The notes under the pieces: model-generated
The model's database searches: none
Told to the model about the DNA's origin: nothing
Seen by the model: the letters and a program-made list of their open reading frames with translations, nothing else
Translations under genes and position numbers: made by a program
Shown: piece after piece, positions 5,602-32,593 of the stretch
How positions within the stretch are numbered: the stretch's first letter is position 1
Layout: each line of letters starts with the position of its first letter
Virus record (IMG/VR): IMGVR_UViG_3300050821_005534
Location: 1-32,874 of that record
Source: a virus
DNA: 32,874 nucleotides
Strand: one strand, 5' to 3'

Positions 5602-5618
5602 TTTACAGGAGTTTATAG

Positions 5619-6347
5619 ATGACAATTCAATGGACTGGTTTTCCTTCATCGGTTGTTGCGGGTTCTACAGATATTCTAGTGGGATTAGCCGGTGGAACAG
5701 CTAATGCACGTTTCAATGCTTCATCTTTTCTTTTTTCAGCTAATAATTTGTCTGATTTAACCGATCTTTCTAGTGCTCAGACTAATTTAGGGCTTGGTCA
5801 AGCAGCTTTAGAGAATAATAATTTTTTTCTTCAAGTAAGTAACAATCTTATAGATTTAGCAAATACAGCGACTGCAAGAGTAAATTTAGGTGTAGGTGCA
5901 TCAGGAACTCATGCAGATAGTTTTTTCTTACAAACGGCTAATAACTTAAGTGATCTTGCTAGTTTGCCGACGGCTTTAACGAATTTAGGTTTAAGCTCTT
6001 CTAATAATGTGACATTTGCATCGATCACAACCACTGGTTTAAATATTTCATCTAATGCTAATAATTTAACAGCATTTGCGGGAGGGGGTCAATCTTCAGC
6101 GATTGCTTTAACAAAAGCATTTAATCGTGTGACTACAGTCGCAACTACAGGCGATAGTGTTAAACTTCCAGCAGCTTTAGCAGGTGAAAGCGTTGTTGTA
6201 ATAAATGCAGCTTCATCCAATGCTTTGAATTGTTTTCCTGCGAGTGGAGATGCAATTAATGCATTATCTGCAAATACAGCGATTTCAATCGCAGCCAATT
6301 CAAAATTAACCTTTGTATGCGCGGTTAATGGAACATGGAATAGTTAG
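5619..6347 (+). CDS. Tail fibre protein with NLSDL-type repeats
   Basis: 242 residues, AGGAG seven bases upstream. Residues ~42-126 carry three degenerate repeats of the type 'NNLSDL...ATARxNLGLG' (copies at about 42-60, 75-93 and 108-126), a repeat widespread in trimeric phage tail fibres, where it forms stalk segments. The C-terminal ~110 residues are beta-rich (AALAGESVVVINAASSNALN and on), possibly a small capping domain. Virion-exposed; probably pairs with the larger fibre proteins downstream. Confidence 0.7.
   Translation: MTIQWTGFPSSVVAGSTDILVGLAGGTANARFNASSFLFSANNLSDLTDLSSAQTNLGLGQAALENNNFFLQVSNNLIDLANTATARVNLGVGASGTHADSFFLQTANNLSDLASLPTALTNLGLSSSNNVTFASITTTGLNISSNANNLTAFAGGGQSSAIALTKAFNRVTTVATTGDSVKLPAALAGESVVVINAASSNALNCFPASGDAINALSANTAISIAANSKLTFVCAVNGTWNS
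5742..5996 (+). repeat. Three NLSDL/NLGLG stalk repeats
   Basis: Protein-level repeats within the fibre gene (residues about 42-126). Copies read ANNLSDLTDLSSAQTNLGLG, then NNLIDLANTATARVNLGVG, then NNLSDLASLPTALTNLGLS. The DNA has diverged, so the repeat is old or under codon drift. Confidence 0.7.
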
Positions 6348-6378
6348 TATTTAAACAGTATAAAGGAATTATACTAAT

Positions 6379-9066: not shown

Positions 9067-9077
9067 GTTAATTTAAC

Positions 9078-9911
9078 ATGGCAACAAATAATTCTACTGA
9101 TAACTATACAGCACTTACAACAAAAGGTGATCTATACGCATATAGTACTTTTGCAACAAGATTACCTATAGGTTCTAATTATTATTTTGTTCAAGCGGAT
9201 TCTACTCAAGCAATTGGTTTAAGTTATCAGTTACCTATTTTACAAGATCAAATAGCTAGCAATACTCATATTGATTTTTTTGGCACAGTAGCTGGTGGAG
9301 ATAGTGCTATATCGACAGCGACTTCAGGAACAGGTTCTAGTGCTGCCCTTGTTAATAGTATAGACAATGCACATTTAGGACTTATTAAGTTAGACATGGG
9401 AACTACGACGACTGGGCATGCATCTTGTTCTAGTAATAATACAGCGACTCCTATTTTATTGAATGGTGCCACCATTACAATTGAAACAGATATTTATTTA
9501 AGCGCATTAAGTAATGGAACAGATACTTACACATTAAATTTTGGAGTATTTGATACGTCTTATCCTTTTATTGCAAGTAATGGTGCTTATATAGCATATT
9601 CAAGTGGAGTAAATTCAGGAAATTGGACAGTTACAATTAATAATGCTACTTCTTTAACCACTTCAAATGGAAGTACTGCTCCAACGGCTGCAACATGGTA
9701 TAAATTGAGATTAGTTATAGGAACAAATACTGTTACAGGTTATGTAGGAGTCGCTGGATCTGATTTTTCTTCTATAGCGACCGTCAATGCAACGTTACCT
9801 ACTGCAAATTTGTTTTTTGCAGTAGGATTATTGAAGTCTGCTGGTACTACAGATACATTTGCATATGTTGACTACTTATCATCAAAAACAATTTATTCAA
9901 CTAAGAGATAA
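9078..9911 (+). CDS. Tail fibre/adhesin protein, MATNNS family
   Basis: 277 residues. The N-terminus (MATNNSTDNYTALTTKGDLY) combines the MATNNSxD start also found in the gene at 10155 with the 'TTKGDLY...RLPIGSN..F.QADS' box that occurs in many phage tail proteins. Residues ~85-277 look like a jelly-roll or lectin-type beta sandwich (for example 'TWYKLRLVIGTNTVTGYVGV'), suggesting carbohydrate recognition. No catalytic motif seen. Likely an alternative or additional receptor-binding protein. Weak ribosome site. Confidence 0.6.
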   Translation: MATNNSTDNYTALTTKGDLYAYSTFATRLPIGSNYYFVQADSTQAIGLSYQLPILQDQIASNTHIDFFGTVAGGDSAISTATSGTGSSAALVNSIDNAHLGLIKLDMGTTTTGHASCSSNNTATPILLNGATITIETDIYLSALSNGTDTYTLNFGVFDTSYPFIASNGAYIAYSSGVNSGNWTVTINNATSLTTSNGSTAPTAATWYKLRLVIGTNTVTGYVGVAGSDFSSIATVNATLPTANLFFAVGLLKSAGTTDTFAYVDYLSSKTIYSTKR

Positions 9912-9914
9912 TTT

Positions 9915-10145
9915 ATGGAATACAAGATTGAAACGGACTTAAATGGCAAAACTCATTTAGTTCATTACAATAATGATGATGGTGCTATCCTGATGACAGG
10001 ATCGTTAGAAGAATGCAAAAATAAATTAATACAATTAATTAAAAATCGTCATAGAATAACACATATTACTTTTTCTGAAAATAGAGTGATAGATCATTCA
10101 AATGGAAACAAAGAATTAAGTTGTAAAGAATTTTGCAATTTTTAG
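9915..10145 (+). CDS. Hypothetical protein, 76 aa, between fibre genes
   Basis: Starts four bases after the preceding stop, with AGAG seven bases upstream. A compact small protein (MEYKIETDLNGKTHLVHYNN and on) with mixed strands and a helix around residues 30-45, and two cysteines in 'LSCKEFCNF' at the end. Its composition is much more polar and charged than the fibres on either side. It might be a fibre-assembly helper, by position only; I recognise no family. Confidence 0.55.
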   Translation: MEYKIETDLNGKTHLVHYNNDDGAILMTGSLEECKNKLIQLIKNRHRITHITFSENRVIDHSNGNKELSCKEFCNF

Positions 10146-10154
10146 GGAATAAAA

Positions 10155-10883
10155 ATGGCAACAAATAATAGTGTTGATGTTCCATTATCCGGTCATACAG
10201 GAACTGGAGCATTCGTTGGTTCTATTTCACCAAGTTTGACGACTCCAACGTTGGGTGCAGGATTTTTTACCTCTTTGCAAACTTCAATTAATGGAGCAAT
10301 TCTTTACGATAATGTCGGATTTCCTTTGTTGAGTTTTTTCACGTCTGGGGGAACCCCTGTTAATTCTATAGAATTTGCAAATGCTATAACATCAAATTCT
10401 CCATTAATACAAGCAATAGGAACTGATAGTAATATTTCTTTAGCAATAAACAGTAAAGGAACGGGGGGAATTCAACTTTCCGGTCAAACAAGCGGTTCTG
10501 CTTTTGCAAGTGGTTATGTGGGCGAAGTGATTTCAAGTATTATACTAACAGTTTCAAGTGTTAGTATAGTATCAGCTACAACAACAAACATGCTTCAAAT
10601 TTCTGTTACTCCTGGAAATTGGGATTTATTTGGAAATTTTGTGATAAGTGGATCTACAGTATCAGAAGTCGCTTGTGCTATTTCATCAGTTTCTGCAACA
10701 TTTCCTGATGAATCATATTGGTCATATGTAAATAATGCATCTGGAGCTGCTCTTTCAGCAGGCCCTGTTCCTACTTTTAATGTAAATATTTCTACTACAA
10801 CAATTTATTATTTGGTAATTAACGCGGTAGTTACAGGTTCGGGAAAAATGTCTGGAGCAATATATGCAAGAAGAAGAGTTTAA
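10155..10883 (+). CDS. Receptor-binding tail fibre protein, MATNNS family
   Basis: 242 residues. N-terminal MATNNSVDVPLSGHTGTGAF and 'SPSLTTPTLGAG' match fibre-type proteins of gammaproteobacterial phages. The C-terminal half, from about residue 120 (SGYVGEVISSIILTVSSVSI, then a 'L.ISVTPGNWDLFGNFVISG' block), matches a recurrent adhesin domain of phage tail proteins that pairs a 'GEVIS' lead-in with a 'LT.G.WDvsG' strand. Likely the tip domain that binds a host surface polymer. Good AGGGA ribosome site. Confidence 0.65.
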   Translation: MATNNSVDVPLSGHTGTGAFVGSISPSLTTPTLGAGFFTSLQTSINGAILYDNVGFPLLSFFTSGGTPVNSIEFANAITSNSPLIQAIGTDSNISLAINSKGTGGIQLSGQTSGSAFASGYVGEVISSIILTVSSVSIVSATTTNMLQISVTPGNWDLFGNFVISGSTVSEVACAISSVSATFPDESYWSYVNNASGAALSAGPVPTFNVNISTTTIYYLVINAVVTGSGKMSGAIYARRRV

Positions 10884-16886: not shown

Positions 16887-17408
16887 ATGGGTTTTCAAAG
16901 TGCAGTATTTATAAATCAAGGTGCGGGTGTTCCTGGAGAACAATATTCTGATAGCCCGTGGAGAGCGCAATCTTATACGATTGATTCAGCTTTGGCATCT
17001 TATAATGTCATTGGATCAACATTTTGCTCTATTACATCACAAGGTTTTGTTGCAGCAGGAAATACCGGCGGTACTGGAGTATTTGCAGGTCTTTTAGTTG
17101 ATCCTAAAGATATTGCATTGTTTGGAACAGGCGGTATTCCTTTAGCACCTACTTTAGTTGTTCCTAATTTTACTCAAGTTGAATGTGCAACAATGGGTAG
17201 TTTCTTTGTGACATTACCAGGTGCTGCAAATATCGGTGATTGGGTTATCTATGATCAAACGACTGGCGCAATTTCTACCGTTGCACCAACGACATCTTTA
17301 CCGAGTGGCAAGTCATGGGCAAATGCTTTCGTGGATTATTTCACGGTAACAGGTGCCGGACTTGGTGTAATTACTTTAAATCCAGGAGTCGGTCAACCCA
17401 CAGCTTAA
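16887..17408 (+). CDS. Structural protein, probable head decoration
   Basis: 173 residues, directly before the major capsid gene, where decoration (cement) proteins usually lie. The composition is glycine- and beta-rich (for example 'GVFAGLLVDPKDIALFGTGG') and the pattern 'GFVAAGNTGGTGVFAGLLV.PK' matches capsid-adjacent structural proteins of myophages with DUF2184 capsids. Likely outer-shell cement; not proven. Ribosome site AAAGGAG ten bases upstream. Confidence 0.65.
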   Translation: MGFQSAVFINQGAGVPGEQYSDSPWRAQSYTIDSALASYNVIGSTFCSITSQGFVAAGNTGGTGVFAGLLVDPKDIALFGTGGIPLAPTLVVPNFTQVECATMGSFFVTLPGAANIGDWVIYDQTTGAISTVAPTTSLPSGKSWANAFVDYFTVTGAGLGVITLNPGVGQPTA

Positions 17409-20047: not shown

Positions 20048-20505
20048 TACCTGGCGCAAATCTTTTAAATATGGCATTTCGAATCATTGCGCAAGAAAAT
20101 GTTGTTTATTATAGAGATTTAGGTCGTATTCAAAATATTATAGGTCAAGATGTCACGGAATATGATCCTGGCACAAAAATGAGCGGAAGCTTTCAACCCG
20201 TCCCTCGAAATCTTTATACAGTTTATGGTCTTGATTTTCAAAAAAGTTATTACACATTTTATACAAGTAATAATTTATTGGATCTTGCGAGAAACATTTC
20301 TGGTGATCAAATCGCATTTAATGGTCAACGGTATCAATGTGAATCAGCTAATGATTGGTTCATGATTGATGGCTGGAAAGGTGTTTTATGCATACATATT
20401 GGAAATGATAATGCAGATCAACAAGTATGGGGATTTAGTTCAAAAAACAATCCTAATACTTATTTGAATTTTGGCAATGGGAATTTCTTGGGAGGGAATG
20501 AATGA
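20044..20505 (+). CDS. Phage neck/collar-type structural protein
   Basis: 153 residues, start overlapping the previous stop (ATGA). Beta-rich with several Tyr/Phe-rich strands (DFQKSYYTFYTSNNLLDLAR, then 'DQIAFNGQRYQCES'). The text 'VYGLDFQKSYYTFYTSNN' and 'QRYQCESANDWFMIDGWKGVLC' matches hypothetical proteins consistently placed between gp10-like and gp12-like neck genes. The C-terminus NTYLNFGNGNFLGGNE recurs in part in the DUF2612 protein at 29676-30500. Probable head completion or neck protein. Confidence 0.6.
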   Translation: MIPGANLLNMAFRIIAQENVVYYRDLGRIQNIIGQDVTEYDPGTKMSGSFQPVPRNLYTVYGLDFQKSYYTFYTSNNLLDLARNISGDQIAFNGQRYQCESANDWFMIDGWKGVLCIHIGNDNADQQVWGFSSKNNPNTYLNFGNGNFLGGNE

Positions 20506-21044
20506 CTACTCTCAATGATAATCAATTAATACAGATATTTTTACCCATTATTCAAAATGGATTAACTGCTGATGGTTTTTTGAATGTGATTGTCAAACAA
20601 TCAAATCAACCGACACAGCAAGGTATTAATACATCTTCAACGGTTTATTTCTTTAAAGTTGCAAGCAAAAGATATGGTTTTTTGGGTCGTTATGACAAAT
20701 GGAAAAATAGTCAAATGACTCACACAGAAGTTCAATACATGGAAACAACTTTTCAAGTTTCAGCGTTAGTATTGCAATATCCTATTACACCAAATCAATA
20801 TACCGCATCTGATTTGGTTTATGAAGTATCTAGCATTATGCAAAGTGATAACACTAGAGATATACTGAACAAATCAGGAATAGGAATATTGAGAGTTACA
20901 GACTTATTGAATCCTTATTTTTTAGATGATAGAGATCAATTTGAGGCATCTCCGTCATTTGATTTTGTATTGACTTATGAGAATACAAGGCAATCAACAA
21001 GTCCTATAATCACGAATTATGATTATAATATTATCCCTGTTTGA
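20502..21044 (+). CDS. Neck terminator protein gp12-like (LIC_12616 family)
   Basis: 180 residues, start overlapping the previous stop, ribosome site GGGAGGG five bases upstream. The first ~35 residues (NQLIQIFLPIIQNGLTADGF), 'QPTQQGINTSSTVYFFKV.SKRYGF.GR' (~36-63) and 'ETTFQVSALV' (~81-90) match the neck-terminator family that joins the head-tail connector to the contractile tail. It closes the neck block just before the sheath gene. Confidence 0.75.
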   Translation: MTTLNDNQLIQIFLPIIQNGLTADGFLNVIVKQSNQPTQQGINTSSTVYFFKVASKRYGFLGRYDKWKNSQMTHTEVQYMETTFQVSALVLQYPITPNQYTASDLVYEVSSIMQSDNTRDILNKSGIGILRVTDLLNPYFLDDRDQFEASPSFDFVLTYENTRQSTSPIITNYDYNIIPV

Positions 21045-21079: not shown

Positions 21080-22867
21080 ATGGCTATTTCTATCACGAAT
21101 TATGTCGATATTACATCAGGCGTAGGTGGTGCCTCAATTGTTGTGACTCGATCATTGGTCGCTCGTTTATTTACCGCAAATCCTTTATTACCACCACAAA
21201 CAGTAGTTTCATTTGATAATGCAGCAGAAGTCGCAAGTTACTTTGGTTTTCAATCCGAAGAATATTTAAGAGCCGTATTTTATTTTTCATGGATCAGTAA
21301 AAATCAAACACAACCACAATCTATTCAATTTGCAAGATGGGTTCAAACGGCTGTTGCACCTGTTATTATTCCTTTACAAAATAATGGAAGTCTGCTTGCT
21401 AATTGGACGTCTATTAGTTCTGGATCATTTATTTTAACGATGGGCGGATTTACTTTTACTCTAAGTGGTTTAAATTTTACAGGTGCAGGAAGTCTTGCTG
21501 CAGTGGCGACTATTATTGAAAATGCAATTCAAGCAGAATCTGGTGGTGGTGCTATGTGGACATCTGCGACTGTTACCTATCAATCATCATTTGATGGTAT
21601 TAATTATAGTGGTTTTTTCCTAACAGGTGGAGCAAATGGTTCTGTTTCAAATCCAATTAATGTTGTTGTGGGTGGTGGTGGGACGGATATAACAGGTATT
21701 GGACTTCTCGGTTGGCTTCCTGAATCATCCAACATTAACGGTAATTTTTTAGCGGGTGCTATATGGTCCACCGGATCTGCGGTTGAAACGATTACTCAAA
21801 CTTTAATTAACTCATCTGATGCATCAAACAATTTTGGTTCATTTGCATTTTTAACAAATTTAAACATTACTTTACAGAATGTCTATGATGCAGCGATTTG
21901 GAATCAAACGCAGAATGTCGTTTATATGTTTTCTGTTGCCGTATTACCATCCAATGTTAACACATGGACATCAACAACGCCTCCTGGTGTTGGCGCAATA
22001 GAAGGTGTTGGATTAACATTATCGCCAGCTATTACAACCGTTTTATTGGCAACTCTAGTTAGCAGCTCAAATCTTGTAACGCTCGATAGTAATTCAGGTT
22101 TAACGATTGGGATGCCGATTTCAGGAACGGATATTCCATCCGGTACTGTTGTTCAAAGTTTAGTAGGAACAACTCAAATTACAATGTCAAATGCCGCCAC
22201 CGGAAGTATTACAGAAAATATTACATTTTCAACTCTTCAATTTCCAGAAATGTTTCCAATGATGATTGAGGCTGCAACAGATTATAACGGAACTAATACA
22301 GTCCAAAATTATGAATATCAACAAGTTGCAGGTTTAACGCCTAGTGTTAGCACAGATGCTAGTAAAGCTGCATATGATAGCATTAATGTGAACTATTATG
22401 GCGTGACACAACAAGCCGGTCAACAAATTGCTTTTTATCAAAATGGCAATTTACAAGGAGAATCCATAACTACGAATTTAATTGGCATGAATGTTTATGT
22501 TAATGAAATTTGGCTAAAGGATGCAGAAACTGTTGCCTTAATGAATTTATTATTATCTGTTACTGAAGTGCCTGCAAACAATCAAGGAAGAAGTCAGATT
22601 TTAGCAACGTTACAAACGGTAATAAATCAAGCACTAAATAATGGTGTTATAAGTGTAGGTAAACAATTAAATTCAACGCAAAAAGCATTTATTTTTGATG
22701 AAACAAATGACCCATTAGCTTGGTATCAGGTACAAAATAATGGTTATTATGTTAACTGCGTTATTACATCTTCAGGAAATCCTGCTGTTTATACCGCAAC
22801 ATATACATTAATTTATAGTAAAGATGACGTAGTAAGCAAGATTACAGGGACGCATACGTTAATATAA
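21080..22867 (+). CDS. Tail sheath-like protein (DUF3383) with inserted beta domain
   Basis: 595 residues, AAGGGAG upstream. The family's parts are clear: 'NYVDITSGVGGASIVVTRSL' (~7-26), 'VASYFGFQSEEYLRAVFYFSW' (~51-71), 'QQAGQQIAFYQNG' and 'AVTLMNLLLS'-type C-terminal helices. DUF3383 proteins are taken to be the contractile sheath of such myophages, which encloses the tube and drives it through the envelope. Between the central and C-terminal parts (residues ~322-385) lies an extra ~60-residue beta domain, GMPISGTDIPSGTVVQSLVG with TQITMSNAATGS, that also occurs in the J protein and the collar protein. Expected to be on the outer surface of the sheath. Confidence 0.82.
   Translation: MAISITNYVDITSGVGGASIVVTRSLVARLFTANPLLPPQTVVSFDNAAEVASYFGFQSEEYLRAVFYFSWISKNQTQPQSIQFARWVQTAVAPVIIPLQNNGSLLANWTSISSGSFILTMGGFTFTLSGLNFTGAGSLAAVATIIENAIQAESGGGAMWTSATVTYQSSFDGINYSGFFLTGGANGSVSNPINVVVGGGGTDITGIGLLGWLPESSNINGNFLAGAIWSTGSAVETITQTLINSSDASNNFGSFAFLTNLNITLQNVYDAAIWNQTQNVVYMFSVAVLPSNVNTWTSTTPPGVGAIEGVGLTLSPAITTVLLATLVSSSNLVTLDSNSGLTIGMPISGTDIPSGTVVQSLVGTTQITMSNAATGSITENITFSTLQFPEMFPMMIEAATDYNGTNTVQNYEYQQVAGLTPSVSTDASKAAYDSINVNYYGVTQQAGQQIAFYQNGNLQGESITTNLIGMNVYVNEIWLKDAETVALMNLLLSVTEVPANNQGRSQILATLQTVINQALNNGVISVGKQLNSTQKAFIFDETNDPLAWYQVQNNGYYVNCVITSSGNPAVYTATYTLIYSKDDVVSKITGTHTLI
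22043..22234 (+). repeat. Shared beta module, copy 1 (in sheath-like protein)
   Basis: About residues 322-385 of the DUF3383 protein: a lead strand 'SNLVTLDSNSGL', the core GMPISGTDIPSGTVVQSLVG and the close TQITMSNAATGSITENITFS. Related to the two copies in the J protein and the one in the collar protein. Confidence 0.7.
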
Positions 22868-22886
22868 TTTCATGGAGTGAAATAAA

Positions 22887-23333
22887 ATGCAAAATATTTC
22901 AGGTTTTGGTTTATTAATTAATATTATTGCGTCAAACAGTTTTCCAGTTGGTCTTTTAATTACTGAATTTGCTGATGATTCAGATCCTTTCGATTTACCA
23001 TCTATCCAAATTGCTGACAAAGCGATGGGATTAAATGGCGATCTAATCATTTGGTCAAAAGCAAATCCTATTATTGTAACATTAAATGTCATTCCAGGAA
23101 GTTTCAGTGATCTCAATTTAGCCGTTTTATTAGAAGCTAATCGTGTCGGTAAAGGTAAAACAGGCGCGAGAGATATTATTACAATGACAGGTATATATCC
23201 TAACAATACACCTATTACTTTGATTAACGGCGCAATTACGGATGGTCTACCAGGAAGTGCCGTTTCAAGTGCTGGAAGATTGAAGTCGAAGTCATATCAA
23301 TTTGCATTTGAAAATAAAATAGGCGGATTATGA
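22887..23333 (+). CDS. Tail tube protein
   Basis: 148 residues, GGAGTGAAATAAA upstream. Follows the sheath, where the tube gene lies in contractile-tail phages. The sequence is strand-rich ([20 protein letters not shown], then [20 protein letters not shown]) and ends '[18 protein letters not shown]', matching the small tube-like proteins of DUF3383 phages. It should form the inner hexameric tube around the tape measure. Start of next gene overlaps its stop (ATGA). Confidence 0.7.
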
Positions 23334-23755
23334 TTGAACCGAAAGAAATAGAAATTGATGGAAAAAAATTTATTATCTCCAAGTTTCCGGCAGTTGCGGG
23401 ACGAGAAATTATCGCACGTTATACTGGATCGGCAATTCCTAAAATTGGAGAATATAAAACAAATAATGAAATAATGCATAAGATGATGTGTTATGTGGGT
23501 GTTAAATTAAATGAACATGGATCACCGTTAATGTTAACAACCACATCGTTAATTGATAATCATACGGGAAATTGGGAAACATTGGCAAAGCTTGAAGTTG
23601 CTATCATGGAGTATAACTGCTCTTTTTTTCTGAGCGGGCGAGTCTCGACTTTCTTTCAAGATATCGCCCAGAAAATACCGGAATCGATTTCAAAAATATT
23701 GATCCTTTTATCGCAACAATCATCGCAGACGGAAAAGCCACCCTCCATGAATTAA
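23330..23755 (+). CDS. Tail assembly chaperone, unshifted product (gpG-like)
   Basis: 141 residues in frame 0, placed between tube and tape measure. Begins [20 protein letters not shown], with '[20 protein letters not shown]' (~22-41), a recognised tail-chaperone pattern ('kfPA..grei..qy....iPk.g.Y..n'). It coats the tape measure during tail assembly and is not in the virion. At codons ~98-100 it crosses a T_TTT_TTT slippery site; staying in frame gives this product ending [13 protein letters not shown]. Confidence 0.8.
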
Positions 23756-23865
23756 GGACTATTTACAGTTTAGAAGATGCATTTAACTTGTGGGAAATTA
23801 TCGCAATAACACGATACAATGAATATCTAGCAATGGAACGTGCTAAAAAAAATAAGGGTCGATAA
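23330..23865 (+). CDS. Tail assembly chaperone, -1 frameshift product (gpGT-like)
   Basis: Joint of 23330-23629 (100 codons, frame 0) and 23629-23865 (78 codons plus stop, -1 frame), 178 residues in all. The -1 frame is open from 23617 to the TAA at 23863-23865 and has no plausible start codon with a ribosome site. Its text is protein-like and domain-like: '[20 protein letters not shown]', '[20 protein letters not shown]', '[20 protein letters not shown]'. Its stop overlaps the tape-measure ATG (TAATG). This is the lambda G/GT arrangement, in which a minor fusion bridges chaperone and tape measure. I infer the frameshift; the site and open frame are seen directly. Confidence 0.8.
23623..23629 (+). 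other. T_TTT_TTT slippery heptamer for -1 frameshift
   Basis: Seven T residues in the correct phase: frame 0 reads TCT TTT TTT CTG, so X_XXY_YYZ is T_TTT_TTT. The -1 frame opens only nine bases before (after a TAA at 23614-23616), so slippage is possible only in a short window and this heptamer lies in it. The following bases, CTGAGCGGGCGAGTCTCGAC, are locally G/C-rich for this genome and may form a stimulatory structure. Confidence 0.75.
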
Positions 23866-25184
23866 TGTCAATACTTGAAACTTTTTATATATTATTTAAA
23901 AGTGACACATCCGATATAAAAAAAGGATCAGATGAGGCATTTAAAACAACAAAAAAATTAAATGAATCTTTAAAAGAAACTGATCAAGCAAGCGAAAAAC
24001 TAGGAACAAAGTTTTTTTCTATGGTTCAATCTATTGCAGGTCTTTTGACGGGATTTGCATCCATTCATGCGGTTGTTTCAGGATTTAAAAATACTTTAGA
24101 TTTTGATATTGATCTTGGTAAAACATCACGTGCTTTAGGCGTTAATGTAGAACAATTGGATACATGGGATAATGCTGTTAGACAAGCAGGTGGAACTGCT
24201 GAAGGTTTTCAAAACTCTCTTAAAAATTTATCTGAACATTTTAATACAAATCCATCAGTCGCTTTAAGATTCCTACCTCAATTGGCCGATGTTTTCAGTA
24301 AAATAAGTCGATTTTCAGCATTCAGATTGGGTAAGTCTCTAGGATTAGATGAAGCCACTATTCTTTTATTGCAACAAGGCAGGCGTGAGGTTGAAGCTGT
24401 TTTAAAACAACAAAGAGAATTAGGAGTTGTTAGTACAAAAGATATAGAAATAACGACTAAATATAATCAGTCTCTTATGAATTTAGAACATGCTTTTAGG
24501 ACATTATATAATGTTCTTATTAATTCATCATTGCCCGGATTTACTAAATTTTTTGATGTTTTGACAAAAGGATTAGGATATTTAACAGCGCATAAAGATT
24601 TAGTCATCGGTGCAATTGTCGGAATCGCCGCTGCTGCAATTTCCGCAGCATTTGCTTTCGAATTAATTTCATTTCCTGTTATTGGATTAATTTTATTAGT
24701 CACAACATTGATTGGAGCTTTTGCACTTTTGTGGGAAGATAATGCTGTTCGACTCAGAGGTGGAAAATCATTATTAGGTGAATATCTTGATGAATGGAAA
24801 AGAGCGGGAATTGCAATAGATGATATCATAAAAAAATGGGGAAATGAATTATTAGATTTTTTAGACAAATTTGCTTTATTGAAACCTATATCAGATTATT
24901 TAAGAAATCATGATAATAGTTTTGTAACCTTTTTAAATACTGATGAAGGTAAAAAATTTACAGATTTTACATCTCAATCTCCAATAAACAATCAATCATC
25001 AAATGTTATTAATTCTTCATTATTCAATAAAAATCACGCGATTAATGTTGGTCCTATTAATATGGAAATACAAAGTAATGATGCTCAGGGAGTTGCTTAT
25101 GGATTAAAAGCAGAATTGGAGAGAATCTTTAAAGGATACACTGATCACGCCAGCGGTAATTTTTCGGATATGGTTTATGTCTAA
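23865..25184 (+). CDS. Tail tape measure protein
   Basis: 439 residues, ATG within the TAATG overlap of the shifted chaperone frame. The N-terminus is a helical, lysine/serine-rich coil (SDTSDIKKGSDEAFKTTKKL); a phage tape-measure block lies at ~83-125 (DLGKTSRALGVNVEQLDTWD then NAVRQAGGTAEGFQ). A long hydrophobic stretch of two membrane-type helices is at ~246-291 (LVIGAIVGIAAAAISAAFAF then IGLILLVTTLIGAFALLWED). It is ejected with the DNA and may help cross the inner membrane. It is short for a tape measure, implying a short tail (of the order of 65 nm at the usual 0.15 nm per residue). Confidence 0.85.
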   Translation: MSILETFYILFKSDTSDIKKGSDEAFKTTKKLNESLKETDQASEKLGTKFFSMVQSIAGLLTGFASIHAVVSGFKNTLDFDIDLGKTSRALGVNVEQLDTWDNAVRQAGGTAEGFQNSLKNLSEHFNTNPSVALRFLPQLADVFSKISRFSAFRLGKSLGLDEATILLLQQGRREVEAVLKQQRELGVVSTKDIEITTKYNQSLMNLEHAFRTLYNVLINSSLPGFTKFFDVLTKGLGYLTAHKDLVIGAIVGIAAAAISAAFAFELISFPVIGLILLVTTLIGAFALLWEDNAVRLRGGKSLLGEYLDEWKRAGIAIDDIIKKWGNELLDFLDKFALLKPISDYLRNHDNSFVTFLNTDEGKKFTDFTSQSPINNQSSNVINSSLFNKNHAINVGPINMEIQSNDAQGVAYGLKAELERIFKGYTDHASGNFSDMVYV

Positions 25185-25752
25185 TCCAATCAATATTATT
25201 AATACATTATTGCCATCTGCATCAGTCGATACAGTTGCTATATTTGATCAAAATTATCATGAATTATTTTCACAAGCAAAATCTATAAAAGCAGTTGTAA
25301 AAGAACAATCTAAATTGATGGAGCATCCAATAGAGACAGGTGCAATTATTACAGATCACCGAATAGTTTTACCTATAGAAATTGATTTGTCTATGATATT
25401 GGCATCGTCTGATTATCAAGATGTTTATAAATCAATAAGACAATATTTTTTTGATGCGACATTATTAATTGTTCAGACGAGAGCGGCTATTTATAAAAAT
25501 CAAATTATATCAGCATTACCACATGAAGAAGATCCAACCATGTATGATGCGTTAACTATCGCTCTAAGTTTAAAACAAGTTTTATATGTTAGTGCTCAAT
25601 ATACGAATACACCTAAATATGCTAATAATTCATCAACTATTGATCGTGGTCAACAACAAGGTACACCTGCTAATGCACAAGAAACAAGTACTCTACAAGG
25701 CGATATTTATGAACCTTTAGCAAAGACCGCAAAGGCATACATACATCTTTAA
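25177..25752 (+). CDS. Baseplate protein, Dit-like N-terminal domain
   Basis: 191 residues, eight-base overlap with the tape-measure gene. The segment 'KLMEHPIETGAIITDHRIVLPIEIDLSMIL' (about residues 47-76) is the signature of Dit-like tail proteins of contractile phages ('.hPvE.GA.I.DHr...P..i.l'), and 'LIVQTRAAIYKNQIISALPH' (~93-112) continues the core. C-terminal ~45 residues are polar and probably disordered. Forms part of the hub between tube and spike. Confidence 0.78.
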   Translation: MSNPINIINTLLPSASVDTVAIFDQNYHELFSQAKSIKAVVKEQSKLMEHPIETGAIITDHRIVLPIEIDLSMILASSDYQDVYKSIRQYFFDATLLIVQTRAAIYKNQIISALPHEEDPTMYDALTIALSLKQVLYVSAQYTNTPKYANNSSTIDRGQQQGTPANAQETSTLQGDIYEPLAKTAKAYIHL

Positions 25753-25766
25753 TTTTGGATAATTAT

Positions 25767-26102
25767 ATGATAGTGATTCCGTTGCAAAATATAGCAAATC
25801 AATCTTTATCTATTCAATTAGACCAAAATCAAATTGATCTTAATTTTCATGCAACTCAGGATAATCCTGATGGGACAAGTGGAGTCACGGGTGTTGATAT
25901 TATAATAAACAATGTTGTTATCGTTTCAGGAATGAGAGCAGTATTTGGAACCCCATTAATTCCTTATCGATATTTAGAAGATGGTAATTTTGCATTTGTG
26001 ACACAAAATGATGATTATCCCGATTGGAGACAATTTGGAATAACACAATTTTTAGTATATGCATCACAATCTGAATTGGACGCAATCTATGCCAATGCCT
26101 AA
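25767..26102 (+). CDS. Baseplate plug protein (DUF6983-like)
   Basis: 111 residues from the ATG at 25767 (TTGGAT acts as ribosome site; an in-frame TTG at 25755 lies in that site). It opens MIVIPLQNIANQSLSIQLDQ, which matches the baseplate plug family ('miviPL..ipnQ.lsv.Ldgq...i......'), and keeps 'Y.LEDGNFAFVTQNDDYPDWR.FG.TQFLVYASQSEL', the family's closing motif. The family closes the distal end of the tail tube near the hub. Confidence 0.78.
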   Translation: MIVIPLQNIANQSLSIQLDQNQIDLNFHATQDNPDGTSGVTGVDIIINNVVIVSGMRAVFGTPLIPYRYLEDGNFAFVTQNDDYPDWRQFGITQFLVYASQSELDAIYANA

Positions 26103-26928
26103 TGAATTAGATCCACGAATTATTAGGGCATCTTTTGAGATAAGCGGAAGAACTAAAGTTTATTCATCACCTTTTTACATACAAGCAACAGGTACCAAAT
26201 TTGCTAATTCTTTACAAAATGAAGCAAATATCGTGATAGCTAATTTAGATAAACAAACTCAGGATTATATACTCACAGAAACGACGCCTTACAATACAAA
26301 TAACACCATAAAAAGCATAACACTTGAGGCAGGGAGGCAATCATATGGAACTGCTGTTATTTATACTGGTAACATTGTCTATTCTAGCTTGTCGCAACCC
26401 CCCGATGTCGGGATAACATTAAAATGTTTAACTGGAAATTTTTTAAAAACTCAAGTGATAGGAGTGAATCAATCAGGGCAAGCATCAACCCAACAAATTG
26501 CTGTAGCTGTTGCGAATTTAACAGGATTGGTATTGAGGTATGAAGCAACAAATAAAATTGTTTCAAATTATAATTTTTCTGGATCAGGCATAAGTCAAAT
26601 TGCGCAATTAAATGCTATCGGTGGTATTAACGCTTTTCAAGATGATGGTGTTTTAGTCGTTAAAGATGCGGGAGTTCCTTTGAAAGATACGCTTAAAATT
26701 GTGAGTTCAAGTACGGGAATGATTGGAATACCTGAATTTACAGAGCAAGGACTTAGAGTAAGATTTTTACTCGATAATGGTGTCGTGATTGGTGGTCGGA
26801 TTCGAGTCAAAAGTACAATAAATCCTGCTGCAAATGGTGAATATATTATCTATAAACTTTCTTTCGAAATAAGTAGTCGTGATACGCCTTTTTATTACAT
26901 TGCAGAATGTCAGAGGATAGGCAATTGA
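26089..26928 (+). CDS. Baseplate hub protein
   Basis: 279 residues from the ATG at 26089 (GGA eight bases upstream; 26059 and 26095 are other in-frame ATGs). The text 'RASFEISGRTKVYSSPFYIQATGTKFANSLQNEANIVIANLDKQTQDYILTETTP' (about 12-65, broken here for the pattern only) is typical of hub proteins in DUF2612-type myophages: 'sG...y....i.a.GtK.......n.a.I.I.NL......lL...sP'. Likely related to Mu gp44/T4 gp27 hubs that hold the spike. Confidence 0.75.
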   Translation: MPMPNELDPRIIRASFEISGRTKVYSSPFYIQATGTKFANSLQNEANIVIANLDKQTQDYILTETTPYNTNNTIKSITLEAGRQSYGTAVIYTGNIVYSSLSQPPDVGITLKCLTGNFLKTQVIGVNQSGQASTQQIAVAVANLTGLVLRYEATNKIVSNYNFSGSGISQIAQLNAIGGINAFQDDGVLVVKDAGVPLKDTLKIVSSSTGMIGIPEFTEQGLRVRFLLDNGVVIGGRIRVKSTINPAANGEYIIYKLSFEISSRDTPFYYIAECQRIGN

Positions 26929-27641
26929 CTACACCTAACGCACCGGACATTGATCCCGCAAATAATGGAAGCTTAGCCGGAACCTTACAATTTTGTTTTA
27001 AAAAATTTATTCAAAATATTAATGGGATGCTTCCGGCAAAAGTTATTGCGTATGATAGGAACACAAATCGTGTTCAAGTGCAATTATTAATCTCAATGCT
27101 TATGACGGATGGCACCATCGTGCCAAGATCTCAGATTGCAAGCTTACCAGTTTTACAATTTGGCGGTGGAGGGTTTTTCCTAGGGTTTAATTTGAATACT
27201 GGGGATCTTGGTTGGGTTTTAGCAAACGATAGAGATATATCCCTCTTTCTTCAAAATTACGAACAGGCAGCCCCTAATACGGCAAGAATAAAGAATTTTG
27301 CTGATGCTTTATTCATTCCTGATATTATGACCGGATATCAAATTGCGGAAGAAGATAAAACCAGTGTCGTTCTACAAAATGCAGATGGAACGATTAAAAT
27401 CAGCTTACAATCTGATAGAATCAAATTAACCGCGCCACTCGTCGAAATAACAGGGGGGCTGCAGGTTGATGGTGTGATTAGTTCTGAGGGTTCTAATCCA
27501 TTGACAATTAATAGTCCTCTTATCGCAAGCAATGGCGTTTCGATAAGTGGGGGCGGTACTAATTCATTGACCGTGACAGGAAATGAAAGAGTCGTTGGAA
27601 ATATTACGGCATCAGGATCAATAACGCCGTTTGTGCCATAA
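26925..27641 (+). CDS. Baseplate spike, Gp138 N-terminal-like
   Basis: 238 residues from TTG 26925, which has AGAGGA seven bases upstream and overlaps the previous stop; an ATG at 26907 is possible but has no ribosome site. N-terminal OB-like domain: 'LPAKVIAYDRNTNRVQVQLL' (~36-55), 'GGGGFFLGFNLNTGDLGWVL' (~80-99), 'ANDRDIS'. This is the Gp138-type spike domain. The C-terminal part from ~145 is a series of short strands ('TIKISLQSDRIKLTAPLVEI', 'GLQVDGVISSEGSNPLTINS') that should form a trimeric beta-helical tip. It ends without a PAAR or lysozyme domain. Pierces the outer membrane. Confidence 0.82.
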   Translation: MTTPNAPDIDPANNGSLAGTLQFCFKKFIQNINGMLPAKVIAYDRNTNRVQVQLLISMLMTDGTIVPRSQIASLPVLQFGGGGFFLGFNLNTGDLGWVLANDRDISLFLQNYEQAAPNTARIKNFADALFIPDIMTGYQIAEEDKTSVVLQNADGTIKISLQSDRIKLTAPLVEITGGLQVDGVISSEGSNPLTINSPLIASNGVSISGGGTNSLTVTGNERVVGNITASGSITPFVP

Positions 27642-27650
27642 AAGGATTTT

Positions 27651-28019
27651 ATGCAAACATTATCAGCAAATGTTAATAATAATATTCCAGGCGTTGCCTA
27701 TGATGATATCTATTTAGATTCTAAAAATAATATTTCTATTAGTTATGATTTAGAAGCGGTGCTAGAGGCATGCGCTCAAGCTGCTCAAACAGTATTAGGC
27801 GAAATCATTTTTAATATAAATCAGGGTATCCCATTTTTTCAAATCGTTTGGGTCGGTGTTCCTAACATTCAACAATACAATGCAGCATTACGCTTAGCAT
27901 TTTTAAATGTTCCAAATGTTGTTGAAGTAGTTTCTTTAATGATATCTCAATTAAATGATACTTTGTCATATACAGCAGTCATAAGAACTAATTTCGGATC
28001 AGGAGGTATCAGTGGCTGA
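27651..28019 (+). CDS. Baseplate wedge protein, gp25-like
   Basis: 122 residues, AAAGGA upstream. The pattern 'DDIYLDSKNNISISYDLEAVLEACAQAAQTVLGEIIFNINQGIPFFQIVWVG' (residues ~18-68) matches the wedge family that precedes gpJ genes in many myophages ('G.i......dleAv.Qa......t..gE..y....GiPy'), and 'SYTAVIRTNFGSGGI' closes the domain. Role: assembles the wedge that joins hub and J protein at the sheath base. Confidence 0.78.
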   Translation: MQTLSANVNNNIPGVAYDDIYLDSKNNISISYDLEAVLEACAQAAQTVLGEIIFNINQGIPFFQIVWVGVPNIQQYNAALRLAFLNVPNVVEVVSLMISQLNDTLSYTAVIRTNFGSGGISG

Positions 28020-29679
28020 CGTTTACAATTATATAGATAGTACAGGAATTATTACATCAGATGCTAATACTATTCAAACAGAAGTACAAAATGAATATTT
28101 GAATACATTTGGTTCTGATTTAAATATTGATCCTAGCACTCCTCAAGGGATGTTAATAACAATTGAAACATTATCACGAATAGCTGTTGCTGATAATAAT
28201 GTTAATTTAGCGAACCAAATAAATCCTAATCTTGCAGGTGGTGTGTTCCTGGATGCCTTAATGCAATTAATGGGACTGCAAAGAACGCCTGCATCTAATT
28301 CAACAGTTTTATGTACTATTACAGGTGTTGTAGGAACATCTATTCCTGCAGGTGCAGAAATATCAACATCAGATGGTACAGTTCTTTTTGAGATAATTTC
28401 TAATACTGTTATACCTTTGGGAGGAAGTATTTCTAATGTCCCCTTCCAATCTGTTCTAACAGGCTCAATTCCTGCATCAGCTAATACATTAACAACTATT
28501 GTAAGTAACATATTAGGATGGGAAACCGTCACCAATCCGTTAGCAGCATCTCAAGGAACTGCAACTCAATCCGATACGCAAGCTAGATTATTAAGACAAA
28601 ATGCACTAGGTGCGCAAGGAAATAGTATTGCAGCAAATGTTATTGCTGCATTATATCAAATTCCAGGAGTTTCAAGCGCAGGGGTTACTTTTCAAGAAAA
28701 CGTAAGCAGTGTATCTCAAACCATCAATGATATTTTGATGGTTTCACATTCAATATATGCGGTCGTTGGTGGAACTGAAGATTTACATGCTATTGCTAGC
28801 GCATTAACTTATAGTAAAGCTGCGGGTGCCGCATATAATAATGGTTTAGGAATACCGATTTCATATCCATTTTTAAATCAATATTCTATGCAAGTGATTA
28901 ATGTCTTATTTGATTTACCGTCATTAGTAAACATTAGCATTCAAGTAACAGTTCATGCACTAACGACTGTACAAAATGTAACTACTGCAGTACAAAATGC
29001 TATTCTTCAATATGCATCAGGTAATTTGCCAGGACAATCAGGATTTGTAGTCGGTGCATCTGTTTCACCTTTTCAATTAGCTGCAGCTATAAATATTTTA
29101 GTTCCAGGATTATTTGTTCAAGAAATACAAATAGGAATTGAATCATTTACTCAACAAGGCGTTATAACAAATGGCGCTAATACCGTGACCGGATTAACTT
29201 ATAATGCTCCCATATCACCTTATATTGGCATTGCAACTGGAATGATTATAACAGATGAAGGTGGAAATATACCCACTGGAACGACTGTTGCATCGTTAGT
29301 CGGTAGTAATGCGATTACAATGTCTGCAAATGCTGTTTTTGCATCATTTGGCTTGCAAGGTACTATTTCTAATGGATTTAATACTGTTACAGGTATGACA
29401 TCTAATGTAGGTATCGTAGTCGGAATGGGGATAACGGGAACCGGAATTCCAGGATCAACGACCGTTGCATCTCTTGTTGGATCAACAGGTATTACGATGT
29501 CTGCCAATGCGACCTCATCAGCGACAGAAACATTAACATTTACACCTGCATCAGGTGCAACATTAATTGACATTTTAACTTTTTCAACGACTCCCATTTA
29601 TCAAACAACAGAAATTCCAATAGGCGTATGGCAAGAAGCCATCACATCGGCACCTTATATTTCGGTAGTTTCTGTATGA
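28012..29679 (+). CDS. Baseplate J protein with two inserted beta modules
   Basis: 555 residues from a GTG with AGGAGGT only four bases upstream, inside the end of the wedge gene. Main parts: 'IQTEVQNEYLNTFGSDLNID' (~21-40), 'TPQGMLITIETLSRIAVADN' (~43-62), 'GGVFLDALMQLMGLQRTPAS' (~76-95), 'QSDTQARLLRQNALGAQGNS' (~186-205) of the baseplate J family (Mu gp47 / T4 gp6-like). From ~382 to 511 two tandem copies of the beta module seen in the sheath and collar proteins interrupt the J domain; its last part (EIPIGVWQEAITSAPYISVV) resumes at ~534. The insertion probably projects from the baseplate edge. Confidence 0.85.
   Translation: MADVYNYIDSTGIITSDANTIQTEVQNEYLNTFGSDLNIDPSTPQGMLITIETLSRIAVADNNVNLANQINPNLAGGVFLDALMQLMGLQRTPASNSTVLCTITGVVGTSIPAGAEISTSDGTVLFEIISNTVIPLGGSISNVPFQSVLTGSIPASANTLTTIVSNILGWETVTNPLAASQGTATQSDTQARLLRQNALGAQGNSIAANVIAALYQIPGVSSAGVTFQENVSSVSQTINDILMVSHSIYAVVGGTEDLHAIASALTYSKAAGAAYNNGLGIPISYPFLNQYSMQVINVLFDLPSLVNISIQVTVHALTTVQNVTTAVQNAILQYASGNLPGQSGFVVGASVSPFQLAAAINILVPGLFVQEIQIGIESFTQQGVITNGANTVTGLTYNAPISPYIGIATGMIITDEGGNIPTGTTVASLVGSNAITMSANAVFASFGLQGTISNGFNTVTGMTSNVGIVVGMGITGTGIPGSTTVASLVGSTGITMSANATSSATETLTFTPASGATLIDILTFSTTPIYQTTEIPIGVWQEAITSAPYISVVSV
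29155..29352 (+). repeat. Shared beta module, copy 2 (in J protein)
   Basis: About residues 382-447 of the J protein: 'GVITNGANTVTGLTYNAPIS', GMIITDEGGNIPTGTTVASL and 'GSNAITMSANAVFAS'. Slightly diverged from copy 3, which follows without a gap. Confidence 0.65.
29356..29544 (+). repeat. Shared beta module, copy 3 (in J protein)
   Basis: About residues 449-511 of the J protein: 'GTISNGFNTVTGMTSNVGIV', GMGITGTGIPGSTTVASLVG and 'STGITMSANATSSATETLTF'. This copy is closest to the consensus and to copies 1 and 4. Confidence 0.7.
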
Positions 29680-30500
29680 ATATTCAAGAATTTAATTATT
29701 TAGTTAACTTATTACAAGCAATATTATGGCAATATGATGAGTCTACTAATTTATTAAGTTTGATTAATCAAAAACAACAATGGTATAACACATATCAAAC
29801 TCAATTTTGGCAAAATTGGTATACCAATGTTTTTAATCTATTAACTGCAAATGAATTCGGATTGAGTGTTTGGTCTTATATTTTATTTGTTCCTTTATTT
29901 TTGGAAAATACGCCTGAACCTGCTGATGCGCCTATATGGGGTTTTAATCAAATAATCAGTTTTCCAACATTAGAAAATACTTATCTTAATTTTCAACATG
30001 GTAATTTCTCAACTAAAGGTTTAATTATTTCTTTAACTGTTGAAGAACAAAGATTTTTATTACGATTAAGATATTTTCAATTGAGCGATAGAGGATCAAT
30101 AACTGTTATCAATCAATTTTTAAATTATTTATTAGCTACATCAAATATTAATTATTCAGGCAGTATTTATGCATTAGATGGTTTAGATATGACAATGACA
30201 TATATTTTTACTGCATCTGGATTTTCAAGTAATTTACTTAATGCGATACAAACATTAGATTTATTTCCAAGACCGACAGGTGTTCGGATAAGAATTCATA
30301 TCAATTATGGATTTCAATTTGGATTTAATGCCGGTACTTTTGGACATTATGAAAATACGAATAAAAATTTTGGAAATGGAAATTTTGTAAATCCTTTTAT
30401 ATTTCCATTATCAGAAACAGAAGATGAAGATCAAGTCATGTTTTCTGAAAGTAATCAAGTTATGCTATCAGAAAGTGGACAAGTCATGGTAACAGAATGA
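29676..30500 (+). CDS. Baseplate-associated DUF2612 protein with C-terminal repeat
   Basis: 274 residues from the ATG at 29676, which overlaps the J stop (ATGA). 'ILWQYDESTNLLSLINQKQQ' (~16-35), 'FGLSVWSYILFVPL' (~68-81) and 'LLRLRYFQLSDRGSITVINQ' (~130-150) are typical of DUF2612, a family next to J proteins that probably attaches fibres or caps the wedge. The last ~24 residues repeat an 8-residue unit: QVMFSESN, QVMLSESG, QVMVTE. The same unit type ends the protein at 5332-5601. It also has NTYLNFQHGNF and NFGNGNF strings shared with the neck protein at 20044. Confidence 0.8.
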   Translation: MNIQEFNYLVNLLQAILWQYDESTNLLSLINQKQQWYNTYQTQFWQNWYTNVFNLLTANEFGLSVWSYILFVPLFLENTPEPADAPIWGFNQIISFPTLENTYLNFQHGNFSTKGLIISLTVEEQRFLLRLRYFQLSDRGSITVINQFLNYLLATSNINYSGSIYALDGLDMTMTYIFTASGFSSNLLNAIQTLDLFPRPTGVRIRIHINYGFQFGFNAGTFGHYENTNKNFGNGNFVNPFIFPLSETEDEDQVMFSESNQVMLSESGQVMVTE

Positions 30501-30528
30501 TTTATTAATTTTATAAGGAAATAAGAAT

Positions 30529-31581
30529 ATGCCATCCCCCTATTATTATTATGTTTATCCTTTCGGACAAAATGCCGATGATTTAACATCGATTCCAACG
30601 AATGCTGCAGGTGACGGATCAGTTAGTTATTATGCAGGATGGACTGATCCTTACGAATATAATCTTTTAACAAATCCCGCAGCATTGCCAATCCCACGGG
30701 GCCAAATGAATCAATTATTTTTTGATATAACAAATAATTTGCAAGAATATCAGCAATATGGTACGCCACAATGGGTCACTGGAAATACTGTTTCTTATCC
30801 TATCTATTCTCGCGTTTATTATACTGGCTTAGTTTATGAAAGCCAAATATCAAATAATACAAATACACCTGGTTCTGATTCTACATGGTTAGTCACAAGT
30901 GGAAATAACGGTGGTGTTCCCATTGGAACTATTATTGATTATGCTGGTGCTTTCCCTCCAGCTAACTATCTTTTATGCGATGGGTCGGCAATTAGTAGAA
31001 CAACTTATGCAGCATTATTATCCGCTATCACACAAACACAAAATGGAACTACAACAAATACAATGGCAACAGTAAGTGGTTTATCGACAACATCTAATAT
31101 GTATCCTGGAATGTCTATTGAAGGTGTTGGAATTCCATCTGGTACGACTATATTATCAATTACAGATTCAACCGATATTGTGATGTCGCAAAATGCAACG
31201 GCAAGTGGAACGGTATCAATACAATTTTTTAATTGGGGAAATGGTAATGGGACAACAACTTTTAATATCCCTCAATGTCGAAGATGTACCAATGTAGGAT
31301 TTGGTGGCTTTGGATCAACTCAATTAGGAAATAAAACAGGTCAAACGGGAGGCGAAGAATCACATACACAATCAATATCTGAAATGCCATCGCATAATCA
31401 TCCTGGTTCAGTTATGCCTTATCAATCATTTAATGCTACAGCAGGCGCAATAGCAGCCGTTGAGACTCCAGGGGGGGTTAGCGGAAATTATCCTGTTACA
31501 GTTGCACCACAAGGTGGTGGTTCTGCTTTTAACGTTATTCAACCTTCAAACATTGTTACAATGTGTATTAAATATAAATAA
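30529..31581 (+). CDS. Tail collar-domain fibre protein with inserted beta module
   Basis: 350 residues, AAGGAAATAAGAAT upstream. A phage Tail Collar domain begins at ~131: PIGTIIDYAGAFPPANYLLC, DGSAISRTTYAALLSAI, then resumes at ~235 as 'NWGNGNGTTTFNIPQCRR'. Between these halves, at the point where family members usually read 'lfa.iGt.yG.GdG.tTF', sits one copy of the shared beta module (about 176-233). Downstream is a C-terminal strand-rich part with 'SHTQSISEMPSHNH' (a His-rich loop usual in collar proteins) and 'VIQPSNIVTMCIKYK', the standard closing of collar fibres. Last gene of the late operon; likely attaches to the baseplate. Confidence 0.85.
   Translation: MPSPYYYYVYPFGQNADDLTSIPTNAAGDGSVSYYAGWTDPYEYNLLTNPAALPIPRGQMNQLFFDITNNLQEYQQYGTPQWVTGNTVSYPIYSRVYYTGLVYESQISNNTNTPGSDSTWLVTSGNNGGVPIGTIIDYAGAFPPANYLLCDGSAISRTTYAALLSAITQTQNGTTTNTMATVSGLSTTSNMYPGMSIEGVGIPSGTTILSITDSTDIVMSQNATASGTVSIQFFNWGNGNGTTTFNIPQCRRCTNVGFGGFGSTQLGNKTGQTGGEESHTQSISEMPSHNHPGSVMPYQSFNATAGAIAAVETPGGVSGNYPVTVAPQGGGSAFNVIQPSNIVTMCIKYK
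31054..31227 (+). repeat. Shared beta module, copy 4 (in collar protein)
   Basis: About residues 176-233 of the collar protein: 'TNTMATVSGLSTTSNMYP', GMSIEGVGIPSGTTILSI and 'STDIVMSQNATASGTVSIQF'. It interrupts the collar domain in one loop, so its ends can be placed within a few residues. Confidence 0.7.
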
Positions 31582-31626: not shown

Positions 31627-32097
31627 TTAAGAAACAGTAACTGTATTTGAATCTTGAACCATGCAAGTAGATGATCCATCTAATACTATACTTGCTTGAT
31701 CAACGTAATTGCCCGCTTTCTTAATATTTTGCATAGTAAAAATTTTTGCATCATTATATCCGGTCGTATGAGGAAGAACAGATCCGCTTTCTTGAATATG
31801 TGTGCAACCAAAATTGAGAATACACATATATTCATCAAAATTATAATTTCCAACATTATCCGAATCATTTGTTATTACATAACTTACCTCTCCAGTGGCT
31901 GTAATGTTTTGACCTGCTTGTCCAGATGCCGGATCAGCCGATGCTTTACACATCGCATTTTTAGTAGTAATATGTTTAATCTGTGATTGATATTCAGACC
32001 AAGAAATATTTTTAATTGTGTGACTTTTAATTGTTAAACCATTTGCAAATACTAAATTTGATGCTAATAAAGATAAAACGATTAGATTAATTTTCAT
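31627..32097 (-). CDS. Secreted four-cysteine protein, paralogue 1
   Basis: 156 residues from the ATG at 32097 (AAGGA eight bases upstream; longer in-frame starts would add a non-signal extension). Sec signal peptide MKINLIVLSLLASNLVFA, likely cut after residue 18. Mature part: ISWSEYQ (31-37), CKASADPASGQAG (50-62), VSYVITND (71-78), DEYMCILNFGCTH (88-100), YVDQASIVLDGSSTC (131-145) and SNTVTV. Cysteines 50, 92, 98 and 145 match the tandem gene upstream exactly, suggesting two disulfides in a periplasmic or extracellular beta-rich protein. Family not recognised. Probably a phage-carried cargo gene or the first host gene next to a prophage. Confidence 0.7.
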   Translation of the reverse strand: MKINLIVLSLLASNLVFANGLTIKSHTIKNISWSEYQSQIKHITTKNAMCKASADPASGQAGQNITATGEVSYVITNDSDNVGNYNFDEYMCILNFGCTHIQESGSVLPHTTGYNDAKIFTMQNIKKAGNYVDQASIVLDGSSTCMVQDSNTVTVS

Positions 32098-32122
32098 TGT
32101 TATATTCCTTAAAAAAATTATA

Positions 32123-32593
32123 TCAATTAACTGTAACAGTATTGCTTCCCTGTTTGAAACAAGCGGATGATCCACTTATTTGCATGGTTGCTTCATCAAC
32201 ATAAGTACCTTTTGTTTCAATATATTGTTTTGTCCCAATAACGCCTTCTCCACTTCCTGAAAGATGAGAATCCAATGTGACATAATCTCTAAAATGCGTA
32301 CATCCGAAAGTATTAATACACATATATTCATCAATAGAATATGTCTGAGCATCATTTGCATCGTTGTAAATAGAATAACTTACATTTCCAAATGCTGAAA
32401 TCTCATCTCCTGCTTTTCCACTAGCAGGATCAGCAGATGCCTGACATGTTGCGGTGGTTGTTTTCATTAGTTTTACAGCATCTTTATATTCAGACCAAGA
32501 AATATGTGTTTCTTCATGGCTTATGATTTTTAGATTATTTGCATAAACAAAATTACTTGCTAATAAAGATAAAATGATTAATTTGATTTTCAT
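32123..32593 (-). CDS. Secreted four-cysteine protein, paralogue 2
   Basis: 156 residues, with signal peptide MKIKLIILSLLASNFVYA. It aligns with paralogue 1 without a single gap (about 82 of 156 identical by hand). Conserved blocks: ISWSEYK, ASADPASGKAG, VSYSIYND, DEYMCINTFGCTH, KGTYVDEATMQ, GSSAC and SNTVTV; Cys 50, 92, 98 and 145 are shared. The most divergent part is residues ~100-125, a loop that may carry specificity. Twenty-five bases separate it from paralogue 1, so the pair is probably co-transcribed. Function unknown. Confidence 0.7.
   Translation of the reverse strand: MKIKLIILSLLASNFVYANNLKIISHEETHISWSEYKDAVKLMKTTTATCQASADPASGKAGDEISAFGNVSYSIYNDANDAQTYSIDEYMCINTFGCTHFRDYVTLDSHLSGSGEGVIGTKQYIETKGTYVDEATMQISGSSACFKQGSNTVTVN

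Follow-up and report, generated by a model that had tools for sequence, protein, structure and literature searches.

We identified four copies of one small beta module in three virion proteins of a contractile-tailed phage. Sequence comparison indicates that the segments are insertions of a single module, and we consider it probable that this autonomous inserted unit is a surface-decorating add-on of the virion, most likely serving weak adhesion at many points. The window, that is, the whole 32.9 kb stretch of DNA analysed here, comes from a single virus record. The arrangement of its virion genes resembles that of Pseudomonas phage E217: portal, cement, major capsid, neck, gateway, sheath, tube, baseplate and fibre.

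Four copies of one module

The first copy (22040..22237; residues ~321-386) lies in the tail sheath, a DUF3383 protein of 595 amino acids (21080..22867; PF11863, E 3e-93; phrog_205 tail sheath) that is homologous to the sheaths gp31 of phage E217 and gp32 of phage Pa193. Copies 2 (29149..29346) and 3 (29350..29550) stand in tandem in the 555-residue baseplate J, or wedge, protein (28012..29679; PF04865, E 2e-12 over residues 78-338; phrog_6), the homologue of E217 gp44. Copy 2 is distinguished from the other copies by an eight-residue internal insertion. The fourth copy (31036..31236) sits inside the collar domain of a fibre protein of 350 residues (30529..31581; PF07484 Collar, E 1.5e-13; phrog_19618 tail collar). 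All of these features are on the + strand. The first-pass annotation had described four copies in three unrelated proteins; both statements hold, as the hosts belong to separate families and only the module boundaries, here given as HMM envelopes, differ slightly from those it proposed. Three further virion genes on the + strand are module-free in the window and belong to families that carry the module elsewhere: a DUF2612 baseplate protein (29628..30500; PF11041, E 2e-30), a capsid cement protein of the E217 gp24/Pam3 gp6 family (16887..17408; PF22758) and a neck gateway or tail terminator protein of the E217 gp29 family (20502..21044; PF22756).

The copies are about 62-70 amino acids long, and pairwise Smith-Waterman scores between them lie 6.5 to 15.4 standard deviations (z) above composition-matched shuffles, with none of 1000 shuffles reaching the observed scores. 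A profile built from 72 modules of other phages, excluding the window and its closest relatives, matched the four copies with domain E values of 4e-11, 1e-22, 7e-24 and 1e-20, and found no fifth copy in the window proteins. With the full profile, the real copies score 46-84 bits vs at most 10.7 bits for shuffled window proteins. At the nucleotide level, the copies are diverged, as first noted, with 53-59% identity over the aligned modules. A rough consensus read from the alignments is GTTTxGSxTVTGLSSTxxLxVGMxVSGTGIPSGTTVxSIxxxTxITMSANATxSxTxTITF, in which the conserved residues (GM, GTGIP-GTT, S-NAT) look structural in role. A single profile underlies all module calls, and it may miss divergent copies.

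The module does not correspond to a named family. Searches of the 72 modules against Pfam-A and NCBIfam (E <= 1 or 0.1) returned no Pfam or NCBIfam family, including no Ig-like or FN3 model and no carbohydrate-binding module (CBM) family, and a text search of the literature for the motif gave no relevant match. PHROGs 17105, 5838, 6002 and 6005 contain the module, each matched by 22 to 38 of the 72 modules; they are unnamed or labelled ‘virion structural protein’ and, being whole-protein clusters that lack a domain definition, neither name nor describe it. Copy 3 used alone in tblastn against phage records had no match, probably due to the low-complexity filter and to divergence, and a better-conserved module relative matched cyanophages and the Bordetella phage PHB04.

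Insertion into the host proteins

Alignment of the window sheath with those of two relative loci, L089 and L090 (49% identical), leaves a clean 69-residue gap in the relatives at the position of the module, and sheath homologues of isolated phages align as two blocks that flank it. The module is likewise absent from the solved sheaths and J proteins of E217 and Pa193. Phage homologues of the J protein lose their match at residue ~380, where the module region starts, and module-less relatives align again over the final ~44 residues. The window collar protein reads ‘..LLSAITQ’, followed by the module and then by ‘GNGNGTTTFNIPQ..’, where L089 reads through as LFAAIGITWGSGDGSTTFNLPD. The J and collar proteins of many relative loci have no module at the corresponding place. 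Module-less relatives exist for all three proteins, and homologues therefore do not always carry these segments. The cultured Bordetella phage vB_BbrM_PHB04 (L170, 87768-93950) has two paralogous genes for collar proteins, of which one carries the module and the other lacks it at the corresponding position.

The claim that the module interrupts a recognizable domain in both the J and the collar protein stands for the collar protein only. There, positions 1-47 of the 57-position PF07484 model match up to the module, and the remainder, GNGNGTTTFNIPQCRR, is found downstream of it, so that the Pfam domain is split. In the J protein, the site is a loop after the Baseplate_J match and ahead of the final ~44 residues, and the module breaks a conserved C-terminal region rather than an annotated domain.

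Predicted fold and structural relatives

Folded alone with 72 relatives, copy 3 gave a six-stranded model of high confidence (pLDDT 96.4, pTM 0.81), which points to an autonomous fold rather than to an integral part of each parent. The full-length sheath model (mean pLDDT 84.6, pTM 0.82) contains the same six strands at residues 318-385, with pLDDT of 83-95 in this block, and matches the E217 sheath 8env with a TMt of 0.84. In this model, the parent sheath fold is retained with the module in place.

When the 72-sequence profile was searched against all PDB chains with hmmsearch, the only match was 8ECI (E 4.3e-5), the decoration protein of Arthrobacter phage Bridgette, with profile positions 4-64 of 67 aligned to residues 13-74. 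The same structure ranked first in Foldseek (probability 1.00, TM 0.84 over the query, rmsd 1.8, 34% identity). Weaker structural matches were the phi92 endosialidase and F1-ATPase chains, and no Ig domain was among the top matches of the six-stranded model. These weaker matches suggest that the module may be a small barrel. We conclude that the module and the N-terminal part of the Bridgette capsid decoration protein are members of one superfamily, a homology seen both by profile and by structure. The Bridgette protein is described as a dimer that bridges the P-hexon capsomeres around the penton (PMC13033339). It is a free-standing capsid protein of 126 residues, whereas the module is inserted in sheath, baseplate and fibre proteins here. 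Since the copies in the window lie within tail proteins, the module is a relative of the Bridgette domain and not itself a decoration protein.

Distribution and evolution among relatives

With the four copies as queries, IMG/VR yielded 206 loci, and sheath searches added up to 80 more; these relatives are mostly metagenomic contigs and are often partial. Counted only over loci fetched by the sheath query, and not by the module, the module occurs in 62 of 322 distinct homologues of the sheath, J, DUF2612, collar, cement and gateway families, vs none of 892 homologues from 17 other virion and packaging families, which include terminase, portal, protease, major capsid, neck, tube, tape measure and spike. 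The corresponding Fisher test (p about 1e-38) is overstated, as the families were grouped post hoc and the genomes are related. As a distribution across these sequences, the module is kept mainly in outer proteins, namely cement, sheath, baseplate wedge and fibre. Given the established functions of its carriers, we infer that it is exposed on the particle. The gateway copy of one locus (L148) would sit where head and tail join, and its exposure there is uncertain.

Beyond the loci fetched by sheath, other phage carriers include a nozzle protein, a Phage_tube_2 tail tube, head proteins, fibres and cyanophage structural proteins, and a gammaproteobacterial (pro)phage collar protein has the module at the same site. 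The module is also present in secreted-looking bacterial proteins from Taibaiella, Planctomycetota and Granulicella, the last with about eight significant copies. The large, probably secreted bacterial proteins lie at L165:3628-7347, L168:5554-8910, L167:5452-7593 and L164:1-12150. The scan of the genome collection with the four-copy alignment found 7 loci, so the cellular distribution is a lower bound.

Within this virus group, six proteins have about ten insertion sites between them, and the majority of these lie on the particle exterior. On module-stripped alignments, the sheath has three (backbone positions 325, 158-163 and 95), the J protein two (~388-404 and 289) and the DUF2612 protein one (~125-130), and the collar protein has one at 173 with a single case (L026) at 206. 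The DUF2612 proteins of L085, L018/L131 and L134 carry one to three copies, and single copies are found in the cement proteins of L111 and L112 and in the gateway protein of L148. On a tree of 65 sheaths, the minimum number of changes is three for sheath site 325, three for site 160, four for J, two for DUF2612 and six for collar.

The adjacent gateway and sheath genes of L148 encode copies that are far nearer to each other than to any other module (77% amino acid and 72% nucleotide identity), and neither is present in its sister L151. This comparison among relatives shows a module that has been gained, lost, tandem-duplicated and copied between virion genes over evolution. In the window, the nearest relative of each copy is the orthologous site in another phage, and the copies are therefore old, with vertical inheritance. 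The earlier suggestion that the module spreads by recombination is supported by its recurrence at several sites and by the recent copying in L148; the window itself has no sign of recent recombination. We also considered recent gene conversion among the four window copies and rejected it, as they are diverged and each is nearest to an orthologous site elsewhere.

Some relatives carry other inserts. The L151 sheath (5649-7556) has an insert of ~124 residues that resembles a tandem duplication of its own beta-rich domain (SGSF.LT.GG...), located in the part of the protein that receives the module in other sheaths. Four J proteins (L096:10562-12373, L099:16808-18589, L109:13239-14768 and L112:17276-19024) seem to contain one or two additional copies of their own internal beta domain, with the pattern ..GTLTGVATTSVPAGTQVSSNGNVF..VVIP..G... 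This looks like a second route to a larger J protein.

Comparison with known phage domains

The Ig-like domains of phages have long been viewed as mobile, optional adhesion domains, and direct proof of this is scant. The module resembles those of tailed phages (Big_1, Big_2 and FN3; Fraser et al. 2006, as cited in PMC9230969) in being a small beta domain that occurs in several virion proteins, is optional and is exchanged between phages; for the Ig-like domains, weak sticking to cell-surface carbohydrates has been proposed. It differs from them in matching no Ig or FN3 model and in being placed mostly in loops rather than as a C-terminal addition. The likeness to Ig-like domains drawn in the first-pass annotation thus applies to behaviour (optional, mobile, in several virion proteins) and not to family, as the nearest neighbour is the Bridgette protein. 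Our best reading is that the module may work like phage Ig-like domains while coming from another family.

Additional domains of phage sheaths are also comparable, as extra beta domains on a conserved core, away from the tube; they are described as mostly Ig-like and particular to sheaths, whereas the module turns up in five further virion proteins within the same phage group. For these domains, adhesion or stabilization has been proposed, with neither proven (PMC9230969), and a weak interaction of tail-tube Ig domains with carbohydrates is likewise proposed and not proven (PMC8718954). E217 and Pa193 share the virion architecture of the window phage and provide solved homologues of its sheath (gp31/gp32) and J protein (gp44/gp45), and E217 also of the gateway (gp29) and cement (gp24) proteins; they differ in the lack of the module from sheath and J.

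Overall, the module constitutes an independent, unnamed family with Ig-like behaviour, versions of proteins with and without it, and a solved relative. A new Pfam-type family would be justified, and would name part of many ‘hypothetical’ virion proteins. Since the same protein is found with and without the module, even as paralogues in one Bordetella phage, a decorating role is testable by deletion.

Proposed role

We propose that a six-stranded autonomous module of ~65 residues sits in loops of virion proteins, where it would leave the parent folds intact and display many copies of the same small surface. A sheath as long as that of E217, which has 204 subunits (PMC10329688), would present roughly 200 modules per tail, in addition to the baseplate and fibre copies. 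The most likely benefit would be weak multivalent adhesion to glycans of the cell envelope or to other surfaces. Adhesion is suggested as the likely benefit by the analogy with Ig-like domains and by the presence of the module in secreted-looking bacterial proteins; glycan or cell-surface binding, as put forward in the first-pass annotation, would follow from this analogy. The post hoc grouping of six families and the non-independence of related genomes count against the decoration reading, as does the function of the Bridgette domain, which may be capsid bridging rather than adhesion.

The main rival to adhesion is a cement-like stabilization, in which modules contact neighbouring subunits of the sheath, baseplate or capsid and so bind the virion and not the cell. 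The only solved relative is a capsid decoration protein described as bridging capsomeres (PMC13033339), a stabilizing role has been proposed for domain II of the phage 812 sheath (PMC9230969), and the cement proteins of L111 and L112 themselves carry the module. However, sheath, wedge, collar, cement and gateway would offer one and the same module quite dissimilar neighbours to fit, close relatives freely do without it, up to three tandem copies occur in one protein, and fibre proteins bear it as frequently as lattice proteins do. We therefore regard mechanical cement as unlikely, though worth serious attention.

Alternatively, the module could be a near-neutral domain parasite, compact and with ends that fit loops, which spreads through recombination and, bringing the phage no benefit, is tolerated wherever virion assembly is left undisturbed. 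Patchy gain and loss, the use of several sites and the near-duplicates in adjacent genes of L148 would all be expected of such an element, as would its absence from internal proteins, where it would be intolerable. We find this improbable, because intact conserved folds have long been kept at the same site (325 in 24 of 65 sheaths), which suggests selection, because the window copies are nearest to the orthologous site in other phages, and because useless insertions are usually lost from small phage genomes. Finally, the idea that the segments are integral to each parent fold and that convergent Gly/Thr/Ser-rich beta repeats only look alike, for which the Thr/Ser/Gly-rich composition and the failure of copy 3 to match any phage by BLAST with the low-complexity filter might be cited, can be dismissed given the similarity beyond shuffles, the independent high-confidence predicted fold, the several insertion sites and the module-less relatives of all three proteins.

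Returning to surface decoration as the preferred reading, a wider version of it is that tailed phages and some secreted bacterial proteins share the module as a general, so far unnamed surface tag. Such a tag would be mobile among the virion genes of one phage and either free-standing, as in Bridgette, or inserted, and it would place one binding surface on all outer parts. We put this extension forward tentatively, as a possibility with rather more against it than for it.

Other features of the window

The gene that follows the sheath (22887-23333) matches PF22764, for which the Pfam label of E217_Gp32 is ‘tail fiber protein’; contrary to this label, gp32 is the tail tube protein according to the E217 paper (PMC10329688). 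Downstream of the collar gene, two adjoining paralogous genes (31627-32175 and 32123-32593, - strand) run opposite to the virion genes and encode apparent signal peptides (MKIKLIILSLLASN...). A Pfam match was sought for one gene of the pair and none was found. They are possible cargo genes.

A block of fibre-like genes (5332-10883) lies between a putative small terminase (4933) and the large terminase (11193), a position that is unusual for tail genes. The unrelated proteins encoded at 5332-5601 and 29628-30500 share similar short terminal repeats (...MVDQSGNIMVDQSGNIMVTQ vs ...QVMFSESNQVMLSESGQVMVTE).
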